NCBI GenBank assembly: GCA_017463225.1
Contig: JAFTPO010000013.1
Location: 1 to 48,100 of the forward strand
Origin: Lachnospiraceae bacterium
Lineage (GTDB): Bacteria > Bacillota > Clostridia > Lachnospirales > Lachnospiraceae
DNA: 48,100 nt
Reading direction: 5' to 3'
How positions within the stretch are numbered: the stretch's first letter is position 1; each line of letters opens with the position of its first letter. Of this stretch, positions 32,407-44,674 are shown piece by piece. A model generated the notes under the pieces. It was not told the DNA's origin. It was given only the letters and a program-made list of their open reading frames with translations, and did no database searches. The translations under genes and the position numbers were made by a program.

Positions 32407-35127
32407 ATGGGACTTTTTGGTAGTTTCTTTGAGAAAATTCCTTTCTTGTCCAATTTGGGGGGCAAGAAGAAATCAACCAAAAGTAATGTTGAGCTTCAAT
32501 ATGATAAAGCCATTAACCAGATGGAAAATGGTAACGCAGAAGAAGCTGTAGAAATATTAGAAAAGATTGTTGACATTGCTATTGTTGATGCAAACTATAA
32601 GAATTTTGGAGTAGATTCTCTTAAGATATTAGGAGAACTGCATGAGACAGGTAAATACAGTAACAGTAAGATTGCTGTTGATAAGGCTAAAGCTTGTCAG
32701 TACTATGAGAAGTATGTAAAGCTCAACAAGGATGGTGAGATGATTTATAAGCTTGCCAAGATGCTTCTTGAGATACAGAATTTCTCTAAAGCGATAACTT
32801 ACTTTGAGAAGGCTACAGACTGCGGAATTAAGGCAGCATATATGAATTTAGGTAGTATATATGAGAATGGCCTTCAGAGAGTAGATCAGTATGGAAACAA
32901 GAGTGATTATGTTGTACCTATAGATTATGATAAGGCTATGATGTGGTATAAGAAGCTTGCTGATACAGGGGATAGTAAGGCGAAGCTTGCTTATGACAGA
33001 GTAGAGTACGCTAGCAAACATACTGACAGTATAGAGTTTGAGGAAAAGGATAAGCTCTATACAGCTATATCAGAAGAGAGACGCGCAAAGGGCAAGGAGC
33101 CAAGATATAAGGCTATTGATCCTTCAAGACTTCAGTATCAGTATACCTATGTTCATAACCAGGTGGATGGTTATATTCACAAGCTTCCTAAGGACTGGGT
33201 TAAAACTATAAATGAAGATACAGATGAGGAGTACTATGCTCCAAGTCTTACATATAAGGACTTTGAGATGTATGTGTCTTACGACAGTATACCTAGAGAT
33301 TCCAAGAAGACTCTTGAGAATTATTTGAGATATTGTAACGATGCCTTCGAAGAGGAGCTTCAGCTTAAGGCATACATTACAGAGTATTCAGATGGTATAT
33401 GTACAACCTTCTACCATAAGGAGATGGAGAAGGGTATAGTTACATTTGCGTTCTATAAGGGCAAGAGACTTGCATGTATGAAGTTTGTATGTGCATCTAT
33501 GGAGATTATCGAGCAGTATGAGGAGATTATATTTGAAACAGCTAACTCCTTTGCATTTGTAGATCCAACTCTTGTAAGTGAGCAGAGTGCAAACCGTAAG
33601 GAGAATCAGTACTATAGTGAGGCTGTATATTGCTATTATTTAGAGGATTATGAAGGAGCCATGACAGCTGCTAAGCAGGCACTTAAGCTGGGTAGTATAA
33701 AGGCTAGTTATCTTCTTATAGAGCTTTACTTTGATGATGATTCACCATATAAGGATATAGAGAAGACTATAAGCTATGCAAAGCAGCTTTTTGATGCAAC
33801 TAAGGATCCTGACCTTGCGTTCTTGCTTGGTAATATATATGACCAGCAGCTTAAGGATTATATGAAGGCTCTTAACTGGTATGAGCATGCTCATAGATTG
33901 GGTCATAAGAGAGTTTCTTTCTATCTTGGTAGATTCTATTACTATGGAGTACTTAGGACTAAGAGAGATGGAGAGAAGGCATTAGAGTACTTTAGAGAAG
34001 CTCAGGCAAATGGTATTCTTGAGGCAGAGGCATATATCAAGGATATAGAAGAGCTAAAGGGAGAAGATCTTCAGACAAGCGTGGATAAGTGGGAGAGAGC
34101 AGTTGAGGCAGGTAGTGGAGCAGCAGCTCTTAAGGTTGCACTTTACAAGCAGAGCCAGGTATTCTTTATGGCTAACTCTTATGAGATTGAAAAAGCATTT
34201 AATGAAGCTCTTGGACTTGGTAGTTATCAGGCCGCTTATGAGCTTGGAAAGATATACCAGCAGCAGGAGGCAGCTGAAGATTACAGAGGAGAGATTAAGA
34301 GTATTAAGTACTTTGAGAGAGCTTATGATAATCATTATGAGGACTTCGATAAGGATAATCTCTTCAAGGTAGTAGAGTATAAGGCTAGTAAGGTTGAAAG
34401 TATAGATGATAAGATAGACTTATATCTTCAGAGTGCATGTATGGGATATGTTCCGGCTGTAGAGAAGGTAATAGAACTTGCAAGCACAGCAGATAAGAAG
34501 ATTGAGACTCTTTACATGGAGCTTCAGAGTATCGCTGAAACAGGCGATGATTCAGCTATTATAGCTATGAATAAGCTTGAGAAGAAGTTTAATTCACTTG
34601 TTATAAAACAGCCTACAGATGCTCAGAAGATTATTGAGAATAAGTTCTTTAGACTATGTGTACCTAAGGAATGTACAGCAGTTATAAATGATGATGGTGG
34701 TACAATTAAGTTTGCGGATTCGGTGGTTGAGTTTGCGGTTGCTGAGATGCCTGTTAAGGCTGAGGAGGAAGCAGATTACCTTAAGATTTACAAGCTTATA
34801 TTATCAGAGTATCTTCCTGATGACAGTGCTGAAATCGTTATTGCTAACTCTAGAATGATTGGTTCAGGTATAAGAGATAATAAGAATAATATTCATTCAT
34901 ACAGTATTCTTCTCATAAGCTCTAAGAACCAGTATCTCTTTAAGCTTAGCTCACGAGACAGACGTGAGATGATGCAGTTTAAGGATAGGGTTCTTGAGAT
35001 TGCGAAGTCGCTTGTAGAGACAGGAGAAATCTATGTAGCTACTGATGGCGAGAGAAAGAATATCGGACTTTCATGGTTGCTTAAGTCTAACGAAAGTGGA
35101 TTCTTATCAATCGGAAAGATGGATTAA
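32407..35127 (+). CDS. Large Sel1/TPR-repeat protein
   Basis: This 906-residue cytoplasmic protein has two blocks of Sel1/TPR-like helical repeats: residues ~25-210 (AYMNLGSIYENGLQ, DYDKAMMWYKKLADTGDSKA) and ~400-700 (AFLLGNIYDQQLKDYMKALNWYEHAHRLGHKR, YELGKIYQQQ). Between them and at the C-terminus (~720-906) are two related alpha/beta segments, with KLPKDWVKTI matching RLCVPKECTAVI. Such proteins are scaffolds; no enzyme motif is seen. RBS: AAAGGAGGA. It looks monocistronic, between the whiA-crh unit and clpB. Confidence 0.75.
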   Translation: MGLFGSFFEKIPFLSNLGGKKKSTKSNVELQYDKAINQMENGNAEEAVEILEKIVDIAIVDANYKNFGVDSLKILGELHETGKYSNSKIAVDKAKACQYYEKYVKLNKDGEMIYKLAKMLLEIQNFSKAITYFEKATDCGIKAAYMNLGSIYENGLQRVDQYGNKSDYVVPIDYDKAMMWYKKLADTGDSKAKLAYDRVEYASKHTDSIEFEEKDKLYTAISEERRAKGKEPRYKAIDPSRLQYQYTYVHNQVDGYIHKLPKDWVKTINEDTDEEYYAPSLTYKDFEMYVSYDSIPRDSKKTLENYLRYCNDAFEEELQLKAYITEYSDGICTTFYHKEMEKGIVTFAFYKGKRLACMKFVCASMEIIEQYEEIIFETANSFAFVDPTLVSEQSANRKENQYYSEAVYCYYLEDYEGAMTAAKQALKLGSIKASYLLIELYFDDDSPYKDIEKTISYAKQLFDATKDPDLAFLLGNIYDQQLKDYMKALNWYEHAHRLGHKRVSFYLGRFYYYGVLRTKRDGEKALEYFREAQANGILEAEAYIKDIEELKGEDLQTSVDKWERAVEAGSGAAALKVALYKQSQVFFMANSYEIEKAFNEALGLGSYQAAYELGKIYQQQEAAEDYRGEIKSIKYFERAYDNHYEDFDKDNLFKVVEYKASKVESIDDKIDLYLQSACMGYVPAVEKVIELASTADKKIETLYMELQSIAETGDDSAIIAMNKLEKKFNSLVIKQPTDAQKIIENKFFRLCVPKECTAVINDDGGTIKFADSVVEFAVAEMPVKAEEEADYLKIYKLILSEYLPDDSAEIVIANSRMIGSGIRDNKNNIHSYSILLISSKNQYLFKLSSRDRREMMQFKDRVLEIAKSLVETGEIYVATDGERKNIGLSWLLKSNESGFLSIGKMD

Positions 35128-37930: not shown

Positions 37931-37939
37931 TGAATTGTA

Positions 37940-37966
37940 AGAGGCTGTGAATCCAGCCTCTTTTTT
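37940..37966 (+). terminator. Intrinsic terminator after clpB
   Basis: AGAGGCTG...CAGCCTCT with a T-run (37960-37966). The T-run leads directly into LytTR-like site B. Confidence 0.85.
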
Positions 37967-37992
37967 ACGCAAAAAAGTATTATTTTTACGCA
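37966..37992 (+). promoter_or_regulatory. LytTR-like direct repeat, site B
   Basis: TACGCA at 37966-37971 and 37987-37992, 21 bp apart. An extended -10, TGCTATAGT (TATAGT 38020-38025), begins 33 bp after the second half-site; an overlapping TATAAT lies at 38026. No -35. It would drive the BMP-kinase-HD-GYP operon. Confidence 0.7.
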
Positions 37993-38087
37993 TAATAAGT
38001 AATATGAACAAAAATGTGCTATAGTTATAATCGGATAAGTGTAATAACTGATAAATATTATAATAGAGAACAAAAGAGGTATATGGT

Positions 38088-39185
38088 ATGAAGAAAATTG
38101 CTATTATAGCTGTAACTATACTTTCGTTGATTATAGTAGGTATATTTTACATAACAAATAGGTATTTAAATGAGGAACCTGAAATAGGTACTACAAAGGT
38201 AGGAATACTATACAATGGTGAAGTTGATGACAAGGGTTGGGGTCAGTCTCATTATGAAGGAATAAATGACAGTGCTAATCAGCTCAATCTTCAAATTATT
38301 TACAAGGAAAACGTTCCTTTTGACAAAAGCTGTATGGATACTATGGAAGGTATGATAGAGGATGGCTGTCAGGTTATTATCTGTAATTCATTTAACTATG
38401 GAGAATGGATTTTAAAGGTTGCAGAAAAACATCCGGATGTTGTATTCCTTCATGCAACAGGAACTGAAACTGGAGATAACATTACCACTTATTTTGGAAG
38501 AATGTATCAGATGAGATATTTAAGTGGAATAGTGGCTGGTATGCAGACTGAGACAAATAATATAGGATATGTGGCAGCGTTTCCTATATCTGAGGTTAAT
38601 CGAGGAATCAACGCATTTACCTTAGGCGTGAAGTCGGTTAATCCTGATGCTACAGTAAATGTGATTTTTACAGAAAGCTGGACAGATTACGAAGCGAATA
38701 AAATTGCTGCGGAAAAGCTTGTAGAAGAGATTGATGTGGATATTATAGCTATGCATTGTGATAGTATAGCGCCTCTTGATGTGGCAGAGGAAAAAGGGGT
38801 ATGGTCTATAGGTTATAATATGGATAACAGTAAGTTTTATCCAAACAGCTTTTTGACTGCACCGGTGTGGAACTGGTCAAGCTTCTACACACCACAGATA
38901 GAGAAGATAATTCAAGGAAGATATTACTCCGGGAATTATTGGCAAGGATCAGAGACAGGGCTTATCAAGCTGGCACCTTTAACAGAGAACGTAAAACCAG
39001 GAATATCTACAGTAGTAGCGGAGAAGAAGGCTATGCTAGATGCAGGCACCTATGATGTTTTCTATGGTCCTGTAGTAGATATAGATGGAAATCTTAGAAT
39101 ATTAGAAGGAGAGAATATGCCGGATGAGCTGATGCTAAATGCATTTGACTGGTATGTGGAGGGCGTAAAAATATATGAAAAATAA
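38088..39185 (+). CDS. Membrane-anchored BMP/PnrA-type ligand-binding protein 1
   Basis: The 365-residue protein has an N-terminal membrane helix (about 4-24) without a lipobox Cys, followed by a BMP/PnrA-like periplasmic-binding domain: VGILYNGEVDDKGWGQSHYEGI, DTMEGMIEDGCQVIICNSF, YVAAFPISEVNRGINAFTLGV. Classical BMP proteins bind nucleosides and serve ABC importers. No permease or ATPase gene is present here, and the gene overlaps a second copy and then a hybrid kinase, so a receptor role is more likely. Site B controls it. Confidence 0.88.
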   Translation: MKKIAIIAVTILSLIIVGIFYITNRYLNEEPEIGTTKVGILYNGEVDDKGWGQSHYEGINDSANQLNLQIIYKENVPFDKSCMDTMEGMIEDGCQVIICNSFNYGEWILKVAEKHPDVVFLHATGTETGDNITTYFGRMYQMRYLSGIVAGMQTETNNIGYVAAFPISEVNRGINAFTLGVKSVNPDATVNVIFTESWTDYEANKIAAEKLVEEIDVDIIAMHCDSIAPLDVAEEKGVWSIGYNMDNSKFYPNSFLTAPVWNWSSFYTPQIEKIIQGRYYSGNYWQGSETGLIKLAPLTENVKPGISTVVAEKKAMLDAGTYDVFYGPVVDIDGNLRILEGENMPDELMLNAFDWYVEGVKIYEK

Positions 39186-40284
39186 AAGAATAAGATATAC
39201 ATTGATAGGTTTAGCAATAATTATTTTTGTATTTATCGTTGTTGTAATAATTACATTTAAGGGTAAAGGCTGGAAAAAGGATACGGATTCTATCAAGCTG
39301 GGATTTATAATGTCGGGAGCAGCTGATGAGGAAGGGTGGAATGGACTTCATTACGATGGAATTAACTCAGCTTGCAAGGAATTGGGTATAGAATTAATAG
39401 TTAAAGAGAATGTTAAGGAGTATTCAGGACAGTGTGAGATTGCTATACAGGAATTAGCAGAGGAAGATGTGGATATTATAATTCTTTCAAGCTATGGTTA
39501 TGCGTCGGAGGTAAAGGATGTCGTAAAGGAATATCCGGATATAACATTTTATTCAGAATCATTTGATTATTATGGAGACAATCTAAATTGTTACTTTGCC
39601 AGAATATATCAGGCAAGATATCTGTCGGGAGTTATAGCAGGACATATGTCTAAGACAGATGTTATTGGATATGTGGCAGCTATGTCTAATAGTGAGGTGA
39701 ATAGAGGAATTAATGCATTTACTCTTGGTGCGAGAAGAGCTAATCCTGACGTCAAAGTTGTGGTCGCATGGAGCAATTCGTGGGATAACGCCGATAAGGA
39801 AAAACAATTGGCAAAGAAGCTTGTGGATGAGGAAGATGCAGATGTATTGGTTTATCATCAAAATCAGCCTAATGTAGTCGCTGTTGCTGAGGATGAGGGG
39901 GTTTATTCTATAGGTTATCACGAGCCTTACGAAGGAGCCAGTGACAAATTTTTGACAACTGTTGAGTTTAGGTGGGATATAACTTATAAAGAATTATTGT
40001 CAGACTATGTTAGAGGTAAATCAAATGTGGTGAATACATATTGGTTTGGATTAGAGAAGGAAGCTATAGGTTTGACGACTGTATCTCCACTGGTTGGTTC
40101 GGATGTAATAGCTGATGTGGAGACTGCTAAGAATGAAATTATTTCTGGGGATAAGATTTTCTCTGGAGTAATATATGATAATCAAGGACAGCTTCGTTGT
40201 CATGAGGACGAAATAATAAGTGATCAAGTACTTATGAATAATATGGATTGGCATGTAGAGGGCGTATATATATATGAAGAATAG
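39175..40284 (+). CDS. Membrane-anchored BMP/PnrA-type ligand-binding protein 2
   Basis: The 369-residue paralogue of the preceding protein has an N-terminal anchor (about 8-28; no Cys) and the same domain layout: LGFIMSGAADEEGWNGLHYDGI, YVAAMSNSEVNRGINAFTLGA, and the C-terminal W.VEGV.IYE tail. It overlaps the upstream gene by 11 bp and the kinase by 11 bp. The two overlaps have nearly the same sequence, so the pair probably arose by tandem duplication. It may bind a different ligand or form a heterodimer with its neighbour. Confidence 0.88.
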   Translation: MKNKRIRYTLIGLAIIIFVFIVVVIITFKGKGWKKDTDSIKLGFIMSGAADEEGWNGLHYDGINSACKELGIELIVKENVKEYSGQCEIAIQELAEEDVDIIILSSYGYASEVKDVVKEYPDITFYSESFDYYGDNLNCYFARIYQARYLSGVIAGHMSKTDVIGYVAAMSNSEVNRGINAFTLGARRANPDVKVVVAWSNSWDNADKEKQLAKKLVDEEDADVLVYHQNQPNVVAVAEDEGVYSIGYHEPYEGASDKFLTTVEFRWDITYKELLSDYVRGKSNVVNTYWFGLEKEAIGLTTVSPLVGSDVIADVETAKNEIISGDKIFSGVIYDNQGQLRCHEDEIISDQVLMNNMDWHVEGVYIYEE

Positions 40285-42787
40285 AAAACGATTGATAAAT
40301 TATAGAACAGTACTGAGTGTAGCTGCTTTGCTTGGGATAATGGTTGTCGTGGGAAGCTTGCTTGGTATGAAGCTTAATCAGCTACTTATTGAACATATGG
40401 AAAAGCAGGTGACAGAGCAATCTAAGCTTTTGTCAGAACAAATACAGCAGGTTATTGAAATCCAATTTGTACAGCTAAACAATATAGCTAATGCGGTGGA
40501 GAAAAACGAGAGTAACCCCAATGCTGTGTTGCAGACAGTAGAACAGGAACGGGAGGGTATTACAGTAGGAGTACTCAAATTAGATGGAAGCGTGCTTATG
40601 GGAGCACCACTGGATATAACACATCATGAAGGTGTAAAAAGCTCTTTTAGAGGTGAGGCGGCGGTTTCCTATGAAAGTGGAGAAGGTATGGTGTTTTCCG
40701 TTCCGATTTATAGAGGTGAAAACATAAAATACGTTCTGTATAAAAAATATGATGAGACGGTTTTGGCAGATACATTTGGTAGAGATTGCTACGATGGGGA
40801 AGGCCATGTACTGTGGGCTAATAAGGACTTTGAAGTAATTATACCATTTGTGGATTCTTCTTATAACGGAAGCTTTCTTCAGCAGGATGCTGTGCAGGAA
40901 GGATTTTCTACTATAAAGGAAAAGATGGAATTAAGTACTGCCGCCAGTGCGTTTGTTAAGACCGATCAGGGTAGATTCTTCCTATTTGTATCTGAGGTGG
41001 AAAACTATGGAGTGTACACAGTTGGTGTTATACCAGAGAATGCCTTGTCAGATGGAATAACATACATTACCACACTTGTCCTTTGGGTGTTTGGACTTTT
41101 GCTTGTTTTATTTGTAATTATAACAGTATACCTTTTTATTACTGCTGAGAAGGCAAAGGAAAGTGATGAATTACGAGAAGCAAAGGAAGATGCAGAAAAT
41201 GCAAACAAGGCAAAAAGTCAGTTCCTTGCAAATATGTCTCATGAGATAAGGACTCCTATACATGGTATTATGGGAATGAATGAGATGGTGCTTAGAGAAA
41301 GCCAGGATGAGAATATTAGGGGGTATGCAAAAAATATTAAAAACGCCAGTGAGAATCTCCTTGAAATTATTAATGGTATTCTCGACTTTTCAAAGATAGA
41401 GGCTGGTAGAATTGAGATAGAGGAGGGAATGTATTCTTTAAATGGTCTGCTTAATGATGTTGTAAATATGATAGCTCCTATTGCTACGAAAAAGGGCTTG
41501 GCGTTTGATGTTAATGTGGATGATAGTCTTCCTAATGAGCTCTATGGAGACGTTGGAAAAGTTAGACAGATTATAATAAATCTTCTAAATAATGCTGTGA
41601 AATATACGCAGAAGGGAAAAGTTACCCTTGTTGTAAGGGGTAACCTGGTGGGAGATAATATTAATCTAAAAATGAAAATGGAAGACACTGGGATAGGTAT
41701 TAAGAAAGAGAATTTAGAAAAGTTATTCACAGACTTCCAAAGACTAGATATAGAAAAGAATAGAGATATTGAGGGTACTGGACTAGGTTTGGCTATAGTA
41801 AATAAGCTAGTTCAACATATGGGAGGAAAAATAAAGGTAACAAGTGAATATGGCAAAGGCTCTGTGTTCTCAGTTAGCATTCCTCAGAAAATTATCGATA
41901 GAAAGTGTATAGGAGATTTTAAGATGGCCCCAGAGACTGCTGTGGATGGAAATCGTAGTACAGGCTTTGTGGCTCCTACTGCTACAATACTGGTAGTGGA
42001 TGATCATGAGATGAACCTTATGGTTATGAAGAATCTTCTCAAGGAAAGTCAGGTGCAGGTGACTACATGTGGTAGTGGTAAAGAATGTATTGAACTTATG
42101 ATTAAGAACTCATATGATATTGTTATGCTAGATCATATGATGCCCGAGATGAATGGTATAGAAACTCTTGAATTGATAATCAAGAAGAATCTTAAGAGAG
42201 AGAGTAGGATAGTAGCCTTGACTGCAAATGCAATAGTTGGTGTTAAGGAGATGTATTTATCAAAGGGTTTTGATGATTATTTGAGTAAGCCAATAGATAC
42301 TATAAAATTAGAAAAACTATTGCTAAGTTTTATTCCGCATAATAAACTAGAAGAAGTGGAGACTCCTAAGTTTGAACAGCGCAAAGAGGAAAAAGCTACA
42401 GTTGTAGATAATAGTATTGACTCTGAGTACAAGTTTATAAATCAAGCTACAGGGTTGAAATACAGCTCGGAAAGTAAAGATATGTACAAATCATTCCTGC
42501 AGATATACTGCGATTTCGCAAAGGATAAGGTTGATCAGCTTACTACGAGTTTTGAGTGTAAGCATTGGGAGGACTATGTGACTTATGTTCATTCTGTAAA
42601 GTCCACTTCTTTAAATATAGGAGGCGAAAAGCTTTCTAAGCTTGCAGCAGATATAGAGGAGCGAGGTAATCGGTACTTGAACGGGGATGAGTCTGGTTTG
42701 GAATATCTTATCAGTACACATGATGAATTGATGAGATTGTATCAGTCAACATATGATGAGGCATTAAAGATTATGAATAGTATTTAG
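40274..42787 (+). CDS. Hybrid sensor histidine kinase with extracellular sensor, REC and Hpt
   Basis: The 837-residue protein has TM1 (about 13-33), an extracellular Cache-like region (about 35-268), TM2 (about 270-294), HisKA with H323 (NMSHEIRTPIHGI), an HATPase domain with NAVKYTQKG, DTGIGI and GTGLGLAIV, a receiver with D620 (VMLDHMMPEMNG) and a C-terminal Hpt with H773 (YVHSVKST). It has no output domain. The partners encoded upstream can present ligand to its outer domain, as LuxP or TorT do for their kinases; the HD-GYP protein with a receiver downstream is the likely phosphate acceptor. Both pairings are inferred from gene order. Confidence 0.92.
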   Translation: MKNRKRLINYRTVLSVAALLGIMVVVGSLLGMKLNQLLIEHMEKQVTEQSKLLSEQIQQVIEIQFVQLNNIANAVEKNESNPNAVLQTVEQEREGITVGVLKLDGSVLMGAPLDITHHEGVKSSFRGEAAVSYESGEGMVFSVPIYRGENIKYVLYKKYDETVLADTFGRDCYDGEGHVLWANKDFEVIIPFVDSSYNGSFLQQDAVQEGFSTIKEKMELSTAASAFVKTDQGRFFLFVSEVENYGVYTVGVIPENALSDGITYITTLVLWVFGLLLVLFVIITVYLFITAEKAKESDELREAKEDAENANKAKSQFLANMSHEIRTPIHGIMGMNEMVLRESQDENIRGYAKNIKNASENLLEIINGILDFSKIEAGRIEIEEGMYSLNGLLNDVVNMIAPIATKKGLAFDVNVDDSLPNELYGDVGKVRQIIINLLNNAVKYTQKGKVTLVVRGNLVGDNINLKMKMEDTGIGIKKENLEKLFTDFQRLDIEKNRDIEGTGLGLAIVNKLVQHMGGKIKVTSEYGKGSVFSVSIPQKIIDRKCIGDFKMAPETAVDGNRSTGFVAPTATILVVDDHEMNLMVMKNLLKESQVQVTTCGSGKECIELMIKNSYDIVMLDHMMPEMNGIETLELIIKKNLKRESRIVALTANAIVGVKEMYLSKGFDDYLSKPIDTIKLEKLLLSFIPHNKLEEVETPKFEQRKEEKATVVDNSIDSEYKFINQATGLKYSSESKDMYKSFLQIYCDFAKDKVDQLTTSFECKHWEDYVTYVHSVKSTSLNIGGEKLSKLAADIEERGNRYLNGDESGLEYLISTHDELMRLYQSTYDEALKIMNSI

Positions 42788-42850
42788 TTCAAAATAAAAT
42801 AAGTAGTATAGTGTAAAAAATGTGTTAAGAAACACAAAAGGGAAGTACTT

Positions 42851-43984
42851 ATGAAGAATGTAAATAAAAAAATGTATTTGTTAACTGTGATTCTTGTTGT
42901 AATAGCTTTGTTTGCAACAGGAAAAAATGTAATAGTTTCTGCCGGTGTGGCTGTTTTGTTGGGAGTATGTTTTTACATCACCTATGCCAAGACTAATGAA
43001 TCGGTTCGTTTAGAACAGGAGACCAATGAAAAGGTTGAAGATATGAACCGTAAGATAATAAAGGCTTTGGCAAGGACCATAGATGCCAAGGATAGATACA
43101 CTAACGGTCATTCTCTGCGTGTGGCGGAATATTCTAAAGAGATAGCCAGAAGAATGAATAAATCTCCAAAGGAACAGGAGATAATATATTATGCAGGACT
43201 ACTTCATGATGTAGGTAAGATTCGAATTCCTGTAGAGGTAATTAATAAGCCAGGAAAACTCAGTGATGAGGAGTTTGAACAGATTAAGATTCATCCGGTT
43301 ACCAGTTATCATATTGTAAAAGATATATTTGATGACCCAAGTGTAAAGAATGGAGCTAAGTTTCATCATGAGAGATATGATGGAACTGGTTATCCTAATG
43401 GTTTAAGAGGAGATAATATCCCAGAGGTTGCCAGAATTATAGGAGTGGCAGATTCGTATGATGCAATGGCAAGTAATAGAAGCTATCGAAAATATTTGCC
43501 TCAAGCTGTTATAAGAAATGAAATAAAAAAAGGTAAGGGAAATCAGTTTGATCCTGTCGTTGCAGATATAATGCTGGAGATGATAGATGAGGATAAGAAT
43601 TACACCATGAGGGAGGTAAAAAACTTGCAGAAGAAGATTCTTGTGGTAGACGATGAGCCTATGAACGTAAAAATGGTTGAAGTTATCCTAAAAGACACTC
43701 CTATGTATCAGATTGTGGGTGCTAATAGTGGTTTAGATGCTATTAAAATGTTGGAAATTCATGAGATAGACATGATACTTCTAGATGTTAAAATGCCGGG
43801 TATGGATGGCTTTGCAACAATGGAGCTAATAAGACAAAAATACAATATGCCTATTGTGCTTATGACAGGTGATAGAAACATAGAAACCATTGAGAGAGCA
43901 ACTAAACTAGGAGTAGATGATTATCTTACTAAACCATTCCTACCACTTGCTCTTAAGGAGATAATACATAGTACTTTAAATTAG
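42851..43984 (+). CDS. Membrane HD-GYP phosphodiesterase with C-terminal receiver domain
   Basis: The 377-residue protein has two N-terminal membrane helices (about 8-46), an HD-GYP domain (about 65-245) and a receiver (about 258-377; D312 in ILLDVKMPGMDG). The metal-binding HD pair is H119-D120 (LLHDVGKI), followed by FHHERYDGTGYPNG (H172, H173, G180-Y181-P182), so the enzyme looks active. HD-GYP domains hydrolyse cyclic-di-GMP. A receiver placed after the catalytic domain is the reverse of the common RpfG order. It lies 63 bp after the kinase; a short stem (42821-42836) precedes its RBS. Confidence 0.92.
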   Translation: MKNVNKKMYLLTVILVVIALFATGKNVIVSAGVAVLLGVCFYITYAKTNESVRLEQETNEKVEDMNRKIIKALARTIDAKDRYTNGHSLRVAEYSKEIARRMNKSPKEQEIIYYAGLLHDVGKIRIPVEVINKPGKLSDEEFEQIKIHPVTSYHIVKDIFDDPSVKNGAKFHHERYDGTGYPNGLRGDNIPEVARIIGVADSYDAMASNRSYRKYLPQAVIRNEIKKGKGNQFDPVVADIMLEMIDEDKNYTMREVKNLQKKILVVDDEPMNVKMVEVILKDTPMYQIVGANSGLDAIKMLEIHEIDMILLDVKMPGMDGFATMELIRQKYNMPIVLMTGDRNIETIERATKLGVDDYLTKPFLPLALKEIIHSTLN

Positions 43985-44000
43985 TTATAATGTGAGTTTG

Positions 44001-44039
44001 AAAAATGTCCACCCTGTGATATGCTGGGTGGACATTTTT
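44001..44039 (+). terminator. Intrinsic terminator after the HD-GYP gene
   Basis: A 14-bp perfect stem (44001-44014 with 44026-44039), GTCCACCC...GGGTGGAC, with a T-run at its 3' end. LytTR-like site C begins two bases later. Confidence 0.88.
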
Positions 44040-44040
44040 G

Positions 44041-44067
44041 TGCGCAAAAAAAGGTGAAATATACGCA
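44041..44067 (+). promoter_or_regulatory. LytTR-like direct repeat, site C
   Basis: TGCGCA (44041-44046) and TACGCA (44062-44067), 21 bp apart. An extended -10, TGATACAGT (TACAGT 44095-44100), begins 33 bp after the second half-site. No -35. The first half-site has one change from the consensus. Confidence 0.65.
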
Positions 44068-44137
44068 AATTAGAATGCAAAACAAAATACGTGATACAGT
44101 AAGAATTAGCTTAATTAAAAATATGGAGGATGTTAAC

Positions 44138-44674
44138 ATGAGTTTTTCGTTTGGACTAAGGGACTTAGTAGACCCTAGAAAGAGACTGATTATGGCTGTG
44201 TTGCTGATGGCGTTAGGTTTGTTTTGCTGGATAGGTAAAGATTGGTATCAAGGGGTTGATAGATCAGATTGTCTAGTGGTAGAAGCTACATTTGATGATT
44301 GCAAGTATAGATCCATAGATGGCGCTATTGATTCAAATAGTATATATCTTACATTTAAAGATTACAGTCATAATATTGACCTTCACTCAAGCTGTGCTGA
44401 TGATAATCTAACTCAGCGACTAATGGAATTAAAATCAGGAACCAAGATGAAACTATTGGTCTATGAGAAGACTAATTTGGCATATGAGATTAAGGTGAAT
44501 GGGGATACTTGGCTAGACTTTAATGATGCTAGGGATTACATTCGTAAGAATAATGATCTTATAACAATTGTGGGTTGTATAATGTTGGGTATAGGAGCAA
44601 TCCTTGTTGTATCATCGATTGTTTCTTTGGCTATTGGAAGACATAATGAGACTGAATATAATTTAGGTGAGTAG
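44138..44674 (+). CDS. Two-TM membrane protein of unknown function
   Basis: The 178-residue protein has a first membrane helix at about 19-37 (LIMAVLLMALGLFCWIG), an extracytoplasmic region of about 110 residues with beta character (DCLVVEATFDDCKYRS), and a second helix at about 146-168. No family recognised; similar DUF3592-like proteins have this layout. The ATG at 44138 follows TGGAGGATG; longer frames upstream would run through site C. It is transcribed alone from site C and convergent with the LytTR regulator, from which a shared terminator separates it. Confidence 0.72.
   Translation: MSFSFGLRDLVDPRKRLIMAVLLMALGLFCWIGKDWYQGVDRSDCLVVEATFDDCKYRSIDGAIDSNSIYLTFKDYSHNIDLHSSCADDNLTQRLMELKSGTKMKLLVYEKTNLAYEIKVNGDTWLDFNDARDYIRKNNDLITIVGCIMLGIGAILVVSSIVSLAIGRHNETEYNLGE

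Follow-up and report, generated by a model that had tools for sequence, protein, structure and literature searches.

Gene content of the locus

We analysed a stretch of 48,100 nucleotides from a Lachnospiraceae bacterium (assembly GCA_017463225.1, contig JAFTPO010000013.1; the whole stretch is called the window below), in which four open reading frames (ORFs) of the + strand stand in one row: two paralogous genes for binding proteins of the BMP/PnrA type (BMP1 and BMP2), one for a hybrid sensor kinase, and one for a protein with an HD-GYP domain and a receiver (REC) domain, predicted to be a phosphodiesterase of cyclic di-GMP (c-di-GMP). The row had been noticed in an initial annotation made from the letters of the window, and ORFs, Pfam matches and residue checks bear out its description as tandem anchored BMP proteins, hybrid kinase and HD-GYP-REC protein. 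The reported overlap of the BMP genes with the kinase gene is also found, 11 nucleotides being shared by BMP1 and BMP2 and another 11 by BMP2 and the kinase gene, and 63 nucleotides separate the latter from the HD-GYP gene. The residues put forward as phosphorylation sites, H323, D620 and H773 in the kinase and D312 in the HD-GYP protein, are all present in the sequence. Pfam places the kinase domains at residues 313-378 (HisKA), 426-539 (HATPase_c), 572-682 (REC) and 741-798 (Hpt). As described, the N-termini of the two BMP proteins have no lipobox cysteine; in fact neither holds any cysteine, and in each a run of hydrophobic residues leads into a short linker. Genes of an ATP-binding cassette (ABC) transporter, said to be absent nearby, were not found among the neighbours scanned with Pfam from position 32407 to the window end. 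The positions of all features are collected in Table 1.

Table 1. Features of the four-gene row and of the gap in front of it (window coordinates; TM, transmembrane helix)
Feature	Position	Strand	Evidence
BMP1: N-terminal membrane anchor and PnrA/BMP-type periplasmic-binding domain	38088..39185	+	PF02608 E 3.9e-54; 365 aa
BMP2: second anchored BMP paralogue	39175..40284	+	PF02608 E 8.2e-50; 369 aa
Hybrid sensor kinase: TM - putative diverged dCache - TM - HisKA - HATPase - REC - Hpt	40274..42787	+	Pfam
Kinase outer dCache-like domain, ~aa 41-260, proposed BMP docking site	40394..41053	+	dCache_1 E 0.012
Kinase HisKA with H323	41210..41407	+	Pfam and residue check
Kinase internal receiver with D620	41987..42319	+	Pfam and residue check
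Kinase Hpt with H773	42494..42667	+	Pfam score at cut-off
Two-TM HD-GYP phosphodiesterase (predicted), C-terminal receiver with D312	42851..43984	+	HD_5 E 3.4e-33, REC E 3.9e-27
Gap between clpC and BMP1, hairpin and T run behind clpC	37931..38087	+	by eye; terminator scan gave no call

BMP genes and kinase genes are linked

The PF02608 (BMP) family is normally used for nutrient uptake. To follow the kinase independently of this family, its outer domain alone, without any BMP sequence, served as query, its rows being taken from kinases that are themselves BMP-linked. In the window's family (299 genomes searched) there were 17 strong matches (E 5.8e-55 or better), including the five strong ones obtained for the order (392 genomes); the phylum (398 genomes, matches listed to E 1e-10) gave 11 further strong ones (E 5.8e-31 or better), all in a single family of another class, where they are spread over five genomes. 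A BMP gene lies directly upstream of all 28 strong matches, that is, in two families of different classes, and beside none of the 14 weak matches inspected (weak meaning worse than 1e-20; five rows in the order, 19 in the family and one in the phylum, of which five, eight and one, respectively, were inspected). Within the genus, wherever the BMP pair occurs and the contig reaches, the order is BMP1, BMP2, kinase, with an HD-GYP gene beside the kinase (the contig breaks off behind BMP2 in L036 and within the kinase gene in L038). The BMP2 alignment was also run against the GTDB species collection, by way of two short peptide patterns and hence with a reach limited to near relatives. It retrieved 21 loci, whose titles read Lachnospiraceae, Lachnospira or Eubacterium; 20 of them are metagenome-assembled genomes and one is strain NC2004, and a ruminant gut site is named for 12. 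In the second family (L171-L181, five genomes) the BMP-kinase unit is present in one to four copies per genome. At L117:9782-10681, at a contig end, a binding protein of the amino-acid type (PF00497), which has a hydrophobic helix at its N-terminus, takes the place of BMP1 in front of BMP2 and the kinase. No BMP-kinase fusion is suggested by the open-frame lengths among the matches listed.

The kinase-linked BMPs carry the PF02608 domain of BMP/PnrA transport binding proteins and lack the lipoprotein signal expected of them. In the Lachnospiraceae set, none of the 66 has a lipobox, a hydrophobic helix precedes the domain in every one, and 16 have a cysteine at some other place before the domain; among the 15 BMPs of the second family there is one lipobox-pattern match (L172), which falls past the helix, where the domain begins, and was not counted. 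For 34 BMPs labelled by script as ABC-linked, one of them (L048) wrongly, a cysteine precedes the domain in 33, and a strict lipobox is found within 50 residues in 24. In a tree of 105 BMP sequences, BMP1 (20 rows) and BMP2 (23 rows) form two clades with SH-aLRT supports of 99 and 95 (quick method), in the half of the tree that also holds AtzT and the BMPs linked to chemoreceptors, to propeller-HD-GYP proteins and, in some cases, to ABC genes. The check proposed with the initial annotation, a search for co-occurrence of anchored BMP genes with hybrid kinases, shows a BMP gene directly upstream at every strong match of the sensor domain.

The whole genome of the window (2.77 Mb, 95 contigs, 97.3% complete) was also searched for a transporter that the BMP proteins might serve, which would have spoken against a receptor role. 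PF02653 (BPD_transp_2) finds one protein, RbsC, beside an RbsB-like protein; no BMP-type permease was found by this search, in which ATPases were not included. PF02608 itself has four matches in this genome: BMP1, BMP2, a 642-residue protein on contig C94 and, below threshold, the RbsB-like protein on C57. The C94 protein (L003) has its BMP domain in the second half and no visible hydrophobic N-terminus, and a match of this kind, in an open frame of ∼500-730 residues, is present in all 37 genomes of the genus; the C57 protein (L004:106-1890) has two tandem binding domains and adjoins RbsC. The claim that the BMP proteins serve the kinase rather than a transporter is strongly supported, because of the linkage at 28 of 28 strong matches, the lack of any lipobox in 66 proteins and the failure to find a permease, and we consider it very probable that they are receptors acting with the kinase.

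As a sample of the wider family, 40 BMP loci were hand-picked across the ranks of the search listing, kinase-linked ones being excluded. Inspection of three genes on each side revealed ABC genes in 30, a chemoreceptor in seven and neither in three; these counts come from the inspection, the script labels being faulty for L048 (called ABC, yet beside a propeller-HD-GYP protein) and for L127, L129 and L161 (called ‘other’ despite an ABC gene three genes off). Besides these seven, BMP genes adjoin chemoreceptors in L043-L045, with sCache_3_3 in both of those scanned (L043 and L045). The BMPs of the chemoreceptor class have a cysteine before the domain in 9/9 and a strict lipobox within 50 residues in 3/9. 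In L046-L054, from the window's genus, a single anchored BMP stands beside a large protein with many membrane helices, ∼1200 residues long where whole, that ends in HD-GYP; a Reg_prop propeller is present in all three scanned (L046, L048 and L053) and Y_Y_Y in two of these, and a lipobox-like match falls inside the helix in two of eight BMPs of this type. Such a BMP may possibly signal to HD-GYP as a direct receptor, without a kinase.

Pocket and predicted ligand of the BMP proteins

Among solved structures, BMP1 is closest to AtzT (6pi5) and to a Brucella protein (3s99), and BMP2 to 3s99. AtzT held guanine, with a dissociation constant of ∼110 nM, and also binds 2-hydroxyatrazine, and 3s99 was deposited with adenine in the pocket (PMC6834077). 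The pocket positions of binders of the AtzT/3s99 type are, in AtzT numbering, Y/W45, S97, E165, W194, N/H218 and N/D220, the published numbering fitting the chain at one of twelve offsets tried. At nine pocket positions BMP1 has W, S, F, R, E, G, W, H and D (W51, S101, F102, E169, W198, H223 and D225 being among them), identical to 3s99 as read by eye in the alignment, and BMP2 has W, S, Y, R, E, G, W, H and N (with W55, S106, Y107, E174, W203, H228 and N230). Across loci, the equivalents of S97, E165, W194 and H218 are present in 31/31 BMP1 proteins; in BMP2, S, W and H are present in 35/35 and E in 32/35. Asp fills the last position in 29 of the 31 BMP1 proteins, and Asn does so in 32 of the 35 BMP2 proteins.

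Because BMP1 equals adenine-modelled 3s99 at all nine positions, purine bases are likely ligands of the BMP proteins of the window, and less certain ones of those of distant relatives; for BMP1 taken singly, a purine base seems to us a reasonably probable choice. Nucleosides had been suggested initially, but the pocket is of the purine-base type found in AtzT and 3s99, which makes bases likelier. The purine pocket is lost at three loci of the second family, L179-L181, and the ligand has therefore probably changed there. In the chemoreceptor class, the pocket reads S, E, W, H and D in all nine BMPs.

Outer domain of the kinase

The extracellular domain ascribed to the kinase has been borne out: two membrane helices, detected by hydropathy, flank an outer domain of ∼220 residues, for which Pfam gives a weak dCache_1 match in 12 of 17 kinases scanned (best E 2.7e-5; 0.012 for the window's own), and which may thus be a diverged dCache domain. 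A purine-binding motif has been published for dCache domains (PMC11245519). With a loose pattern of the published residues, applied without a positive control, this motif is absent in 17/17 kinase dCache domains, and the R..WY signature, also as a loose pattern, is absent in 17/17; the dCache domain of the HD-GYP relative in L037 has RNWY. Absence of both motifs is as expected if the kinase dCache docks proteins, and it fits, without proving, a domain that takes a protein rather than a small ligand. The possibility that the kinase itself is a purine sensor of the dCache_1PU kind was rejected on the same grounds, the motif being absent by the loose pattern in all 17. The NCBIfam models for TorS and LuxQ match the catalytic half of the kinase, below their cut-offs. 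TorS is a hybrid kinase with receiver and Hpt.

Probable output partners of the kinase

The last protein of the row has HD_5 at residues 72-237 and REC at 263-372, it aligns with five relatives, and its signature HHERYDGTGYP is intact; together with D312, this agrees with its description as a two-TM HD-GYP protein with a C-terminal receiver. Since there is little sequence between its two helices, it has no outer domain. Its relatives in L037 and L042 do have one, which Pfam identifies as dCache_1 in L037. The protein parts of a relay of the RpfC/RpfG type are at hand, namely a hybrid kinase with H, D and Hpt sites (Hpt at the Pfam cut-off) and an HD-GYP protein with a receiver. In RpfG the order is REC-HD-GYP, whereas the protein of the window is TM-HD-GYP-REC.

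To see how constant this partnership is, 35 Lachnospiraceae loci were surveyed, of which 33 were counted, as L038 and L059 end inside the kinase with no preceding c-di-GMP enzyme; the lengths of the flanks vary among the 33. A receiver-bearing c-di-GMP enzyme is nearby in 21 (HD-GYP only in 15, GGDEF only in four, both in two), and at 16 of these 21 loci it overlaps the kinase gene or lies within 75 nucleotides downstream. In the genome of the window, with 28 GGDEF and nine HD_5 domains (about one per 75 kb), ∼0.16 such domains would be expected within 6 kb on either side, a figure for orientation since the loci are related, which precludes a formal test. In a kinase tree of 34 rows (truncated L068 was left out), GGDEF partners fall on two separate branches. 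In the second family, a REC-HD-GYP gene abuts the BMP gene in three of 11 loci; at the other loci there are receivers of another kind, GGDEF proteins in which no receiver was matched, or none of these. Two PilZ proteins are encoded in the genome of the window, and c-di-GMP signalling is therefore likely present. We regard the HD-GYP protein as the probable target of the relay, with good confidence. The initial proposal that the relay ends in c-di-GMP breakdown holds in part: context (21/33 loci) supports the link to c-di-GMP, but the output is not always breakdown, because some relatives carry a GGDEF synthase, and no enzyme is found in the available sequence of 12/33 loci.

Proposed mechanism and alternatives

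The gene row, its domains, the catalytic and pocket residues, the anchors and the conserved linkage can be read in the sequence, and from them we infer a ligand, docking, phosphotransfer, enzyme activity and operon transcription as follows. Their N-terminal helices, left uncleaved, would tether BMP1 and BMP2 to the outside of the membrane. There the two proteins would bind purine bases and contact the hybrid kinase at its diverged dCache domain, and the bound ligand would shift the balance between kinase and phosphatase activities. Phosphate would pass from H323 to D620, to H773 and on to D312 of the HD-GYP-REC protein, and this protein would accordingly set the hydrolysis of c-di-GMP. Some other lineages pair this sensor complex with a REC-GGDEF synthase, so that one sensor would be put to use with either sign of output. 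That sensing proceeds in these three parts, from BMP co-receptors outside through the hybrid kinase to a c-di-GMP enzyme inside, is in our judgement fairly probable.

Several observations weigh against this scheme. The BMP pair is present in only eight of 37 genomes of the genus (36 relatives and the window's own), and six of the 35 Lachnospiraceae loci show a single BMP. The pocket is not invariant, E165 being replaced by Q in 3/35 BMP2 proteins of the first set and in 6/15 BMPs of the second family, where the purine pocket is lost in 3/15. As for the kinase, the dCache call rests on weak scores, the Hpt match of the window scores 24.6 bits, exactly at the Pfam cut-off, and six of 35 kinases show no match to the window's Hpt, three of these six being cut by a contig end. 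On the output side, no c-di-GMP enzyme is found in the available sequence of 12 of the 33 loci, two of which have a lone receiver (L109 and L117), eight of the 11 second-family loci are without an adjoining REC-HD-GYP gene, and gene adjacency is in any case no proof of phosphotransfer.

Other explanations may account for part of these data. One is that the BMP proteins are ordinary transport binding proteins for a distant or missing ABC transporter, and that the kinase neighbourhood is incidental or reflects regulation of uptake. PF02608 is indeed mostly a transport family, as the 30 of 40 sampled loci with ABC genes illustrate, and the assembly is a draft (97% complete, 95 contigs), so that a transporter could sit on missing sequence; but no BMP-type permease was found in the genome, all 66 kinase-linked BMPs are without lipobox, the linkage extends over 28 of 28 strong matches in two families, and the kinase-linked BMPs make up two clades of their own, all of which renders this explanation very improbable. 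A more serious one is that the BMP proteins are co-receptors, yet that the relay leads to a different receiver, with the HD-GYP gene as a passenger. The 12 loci with no enzyme nearby, the two lone receivers beside the kinase and the other receiver proteins at several second-family loci would fit this. The kinase is, however, paired with receiver-bearing c-di-GMP enzymes at 21 of 33 loci, in 16 of these cases by overlap or within 75 nucleotides, and the occurrence beside it of two enzyme classes of opposite sign suggests c-di-GMP as the shared theme; a passenger role seems unlikely to us.

A third alternative concerns the ligand. The pocket could have been kept for another heterocycle or for structural reasons, and the ligand would then not be a purine base. 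Some members of the BMP family bind nucleosides, AtzT accommodates both guanine and 2-hydroxyatrazine, the sole NCBIfam match of BMP type here is to a putative B6 binder (far below cut-off), and the pocket has drifted in part of the second family. Set against this are the identity of BMP1 to 3s99, with its modelled adenine, at nine of nine positions, and the near uniformity of the two stacking positions and of S97, E165 and H218 over 66 proteins; we thus give a non-purine ligand a minority share, larger than that of a passenger HD-GYP gene. If purine bases are retained as ligands, one may speculate further that the row is a comparator with two channels, BMP1 (Asp at the AtzT-N220 position, like adenine-modelled 3s99) and BMP2 (Asn) binding different purine bases and docking together on a single kinase dimer. 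What sets c-di-GMP would then be the ratio between two purines outside the cell, in place of a single ligand, acting through a sensor head that evolution has rewired to a phosphodiesterase or a cyclase; with PF00497 in the slot of L117, it would even be a modular co-receptor platform for multiple ligands. This extension is tentative and, in our opinion, rather doubtful.

Transcription and neighbouring genes

The hairpin and T run behind clpC suggest that the four-gene row probably starts a transcription unit of its own; the terminator scan called no terminator after clpC, although the hairpin is visible by eye. Promoter-like sites are not informative (39 in the scan, versus a shuffle mean of 29.3 with a standard deviation of 4.3), and Rfam gave no riboswitch or other match at the gathering threshold in the window. 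Downstream of the row, positions 44021-44674 encode a 217-residue protein with no Pfam match, which adjoins the row also in L035 and L039; a protein of the same type is encoded just upstream of the BMP genes in L061.

Comparison with known systems

The initial remark that no described system with this set was known can be kept for the BMP version only. No BMP/PnrA protein acting with a histidine kinase or a c-di-GMP enzyme appeared among the literature matches listed, whose coverage lies mostly outside subscription journals, so that a description may exist in print; the available text of a survey that covers PF02608 among other binding proteins names no kinase partner (PMC9602780). According to a review, of 27 families of the periplasmic-binding clan only SBP_bac_3 has been studied in c-di-GMP networks (PMC8846402). 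If our scheme is true, it adds BMP proteins and a predicted purine-base input to these networks, provides, for a single sensor, a naturally occurring series of outputs by phosphodiesterase and by cyclase, and warns that PF02608 genes annotated as binding proteins of ABC transporters can be receptors. AtzT and Brucella 3s99, the nearest solved relatives, share the pocket positions, but the available text discusses AtzT as an uptake binding protein and mentions no kinase partner (PMC6834077).

The general kind, on the other hand, is well described. In LuxP-LuxQ, TorT-TorS and XylFII-LytS, a binding protein complexed with the outer domain of a sensor kinase carries the ligand signal (PMC6321045). 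The present row resembles these in the consistent linkage of a BMP gene to the kinase gene (28/28) and in the kinase outer domain between two helices; it differs in that the binding proteins belong to PF02608, are usually two paralogues and are membrane-anchored, and in that the usual output gene partner is a c-di-GMP enzyme. LevQRST of Streptococcus mutans likewise has two binding proteins for one kinase, but these bind carbohydrates and the output is control of transcription, with no hybrid relay or c-di-GMP enzyme mentioned in the available text (PMC3043104). CuaDSR of Ruminiclostridium cellulolyticum is clostridial too; its dedicated binding protein CuaD associates with the outer part of the kinase CuaS whether ligand is present or not. 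The system differs by responding to cellobiose, with one binding protein and gene expression as output (PMC10384115). For the output, a periplasmic binding protein controls c-di-GMP turnover also in NspS-MbaA of Vibrio cholerae, where, in contrast, NspS acts directly on a GGDEF-EAL receptor in response to polyamines, with no kinase relay (PMC8967002). In RpfC-RpfG of Xanthomonas, a hybrid kinase containing receiver and Hpt works with its cognate regulator, a c-di-GMP phosphodiesterase of the HD-GYP type, but the fatty acid DSF acts on RpfC itself, and the available text mentions no binding protein (PMC5391125). Compared with these systems, the four-gene row with its BMP proteins is real and conserved, and appears to be an undescribed version of a known kind of partnership between binding proteins and a sensor kinase.

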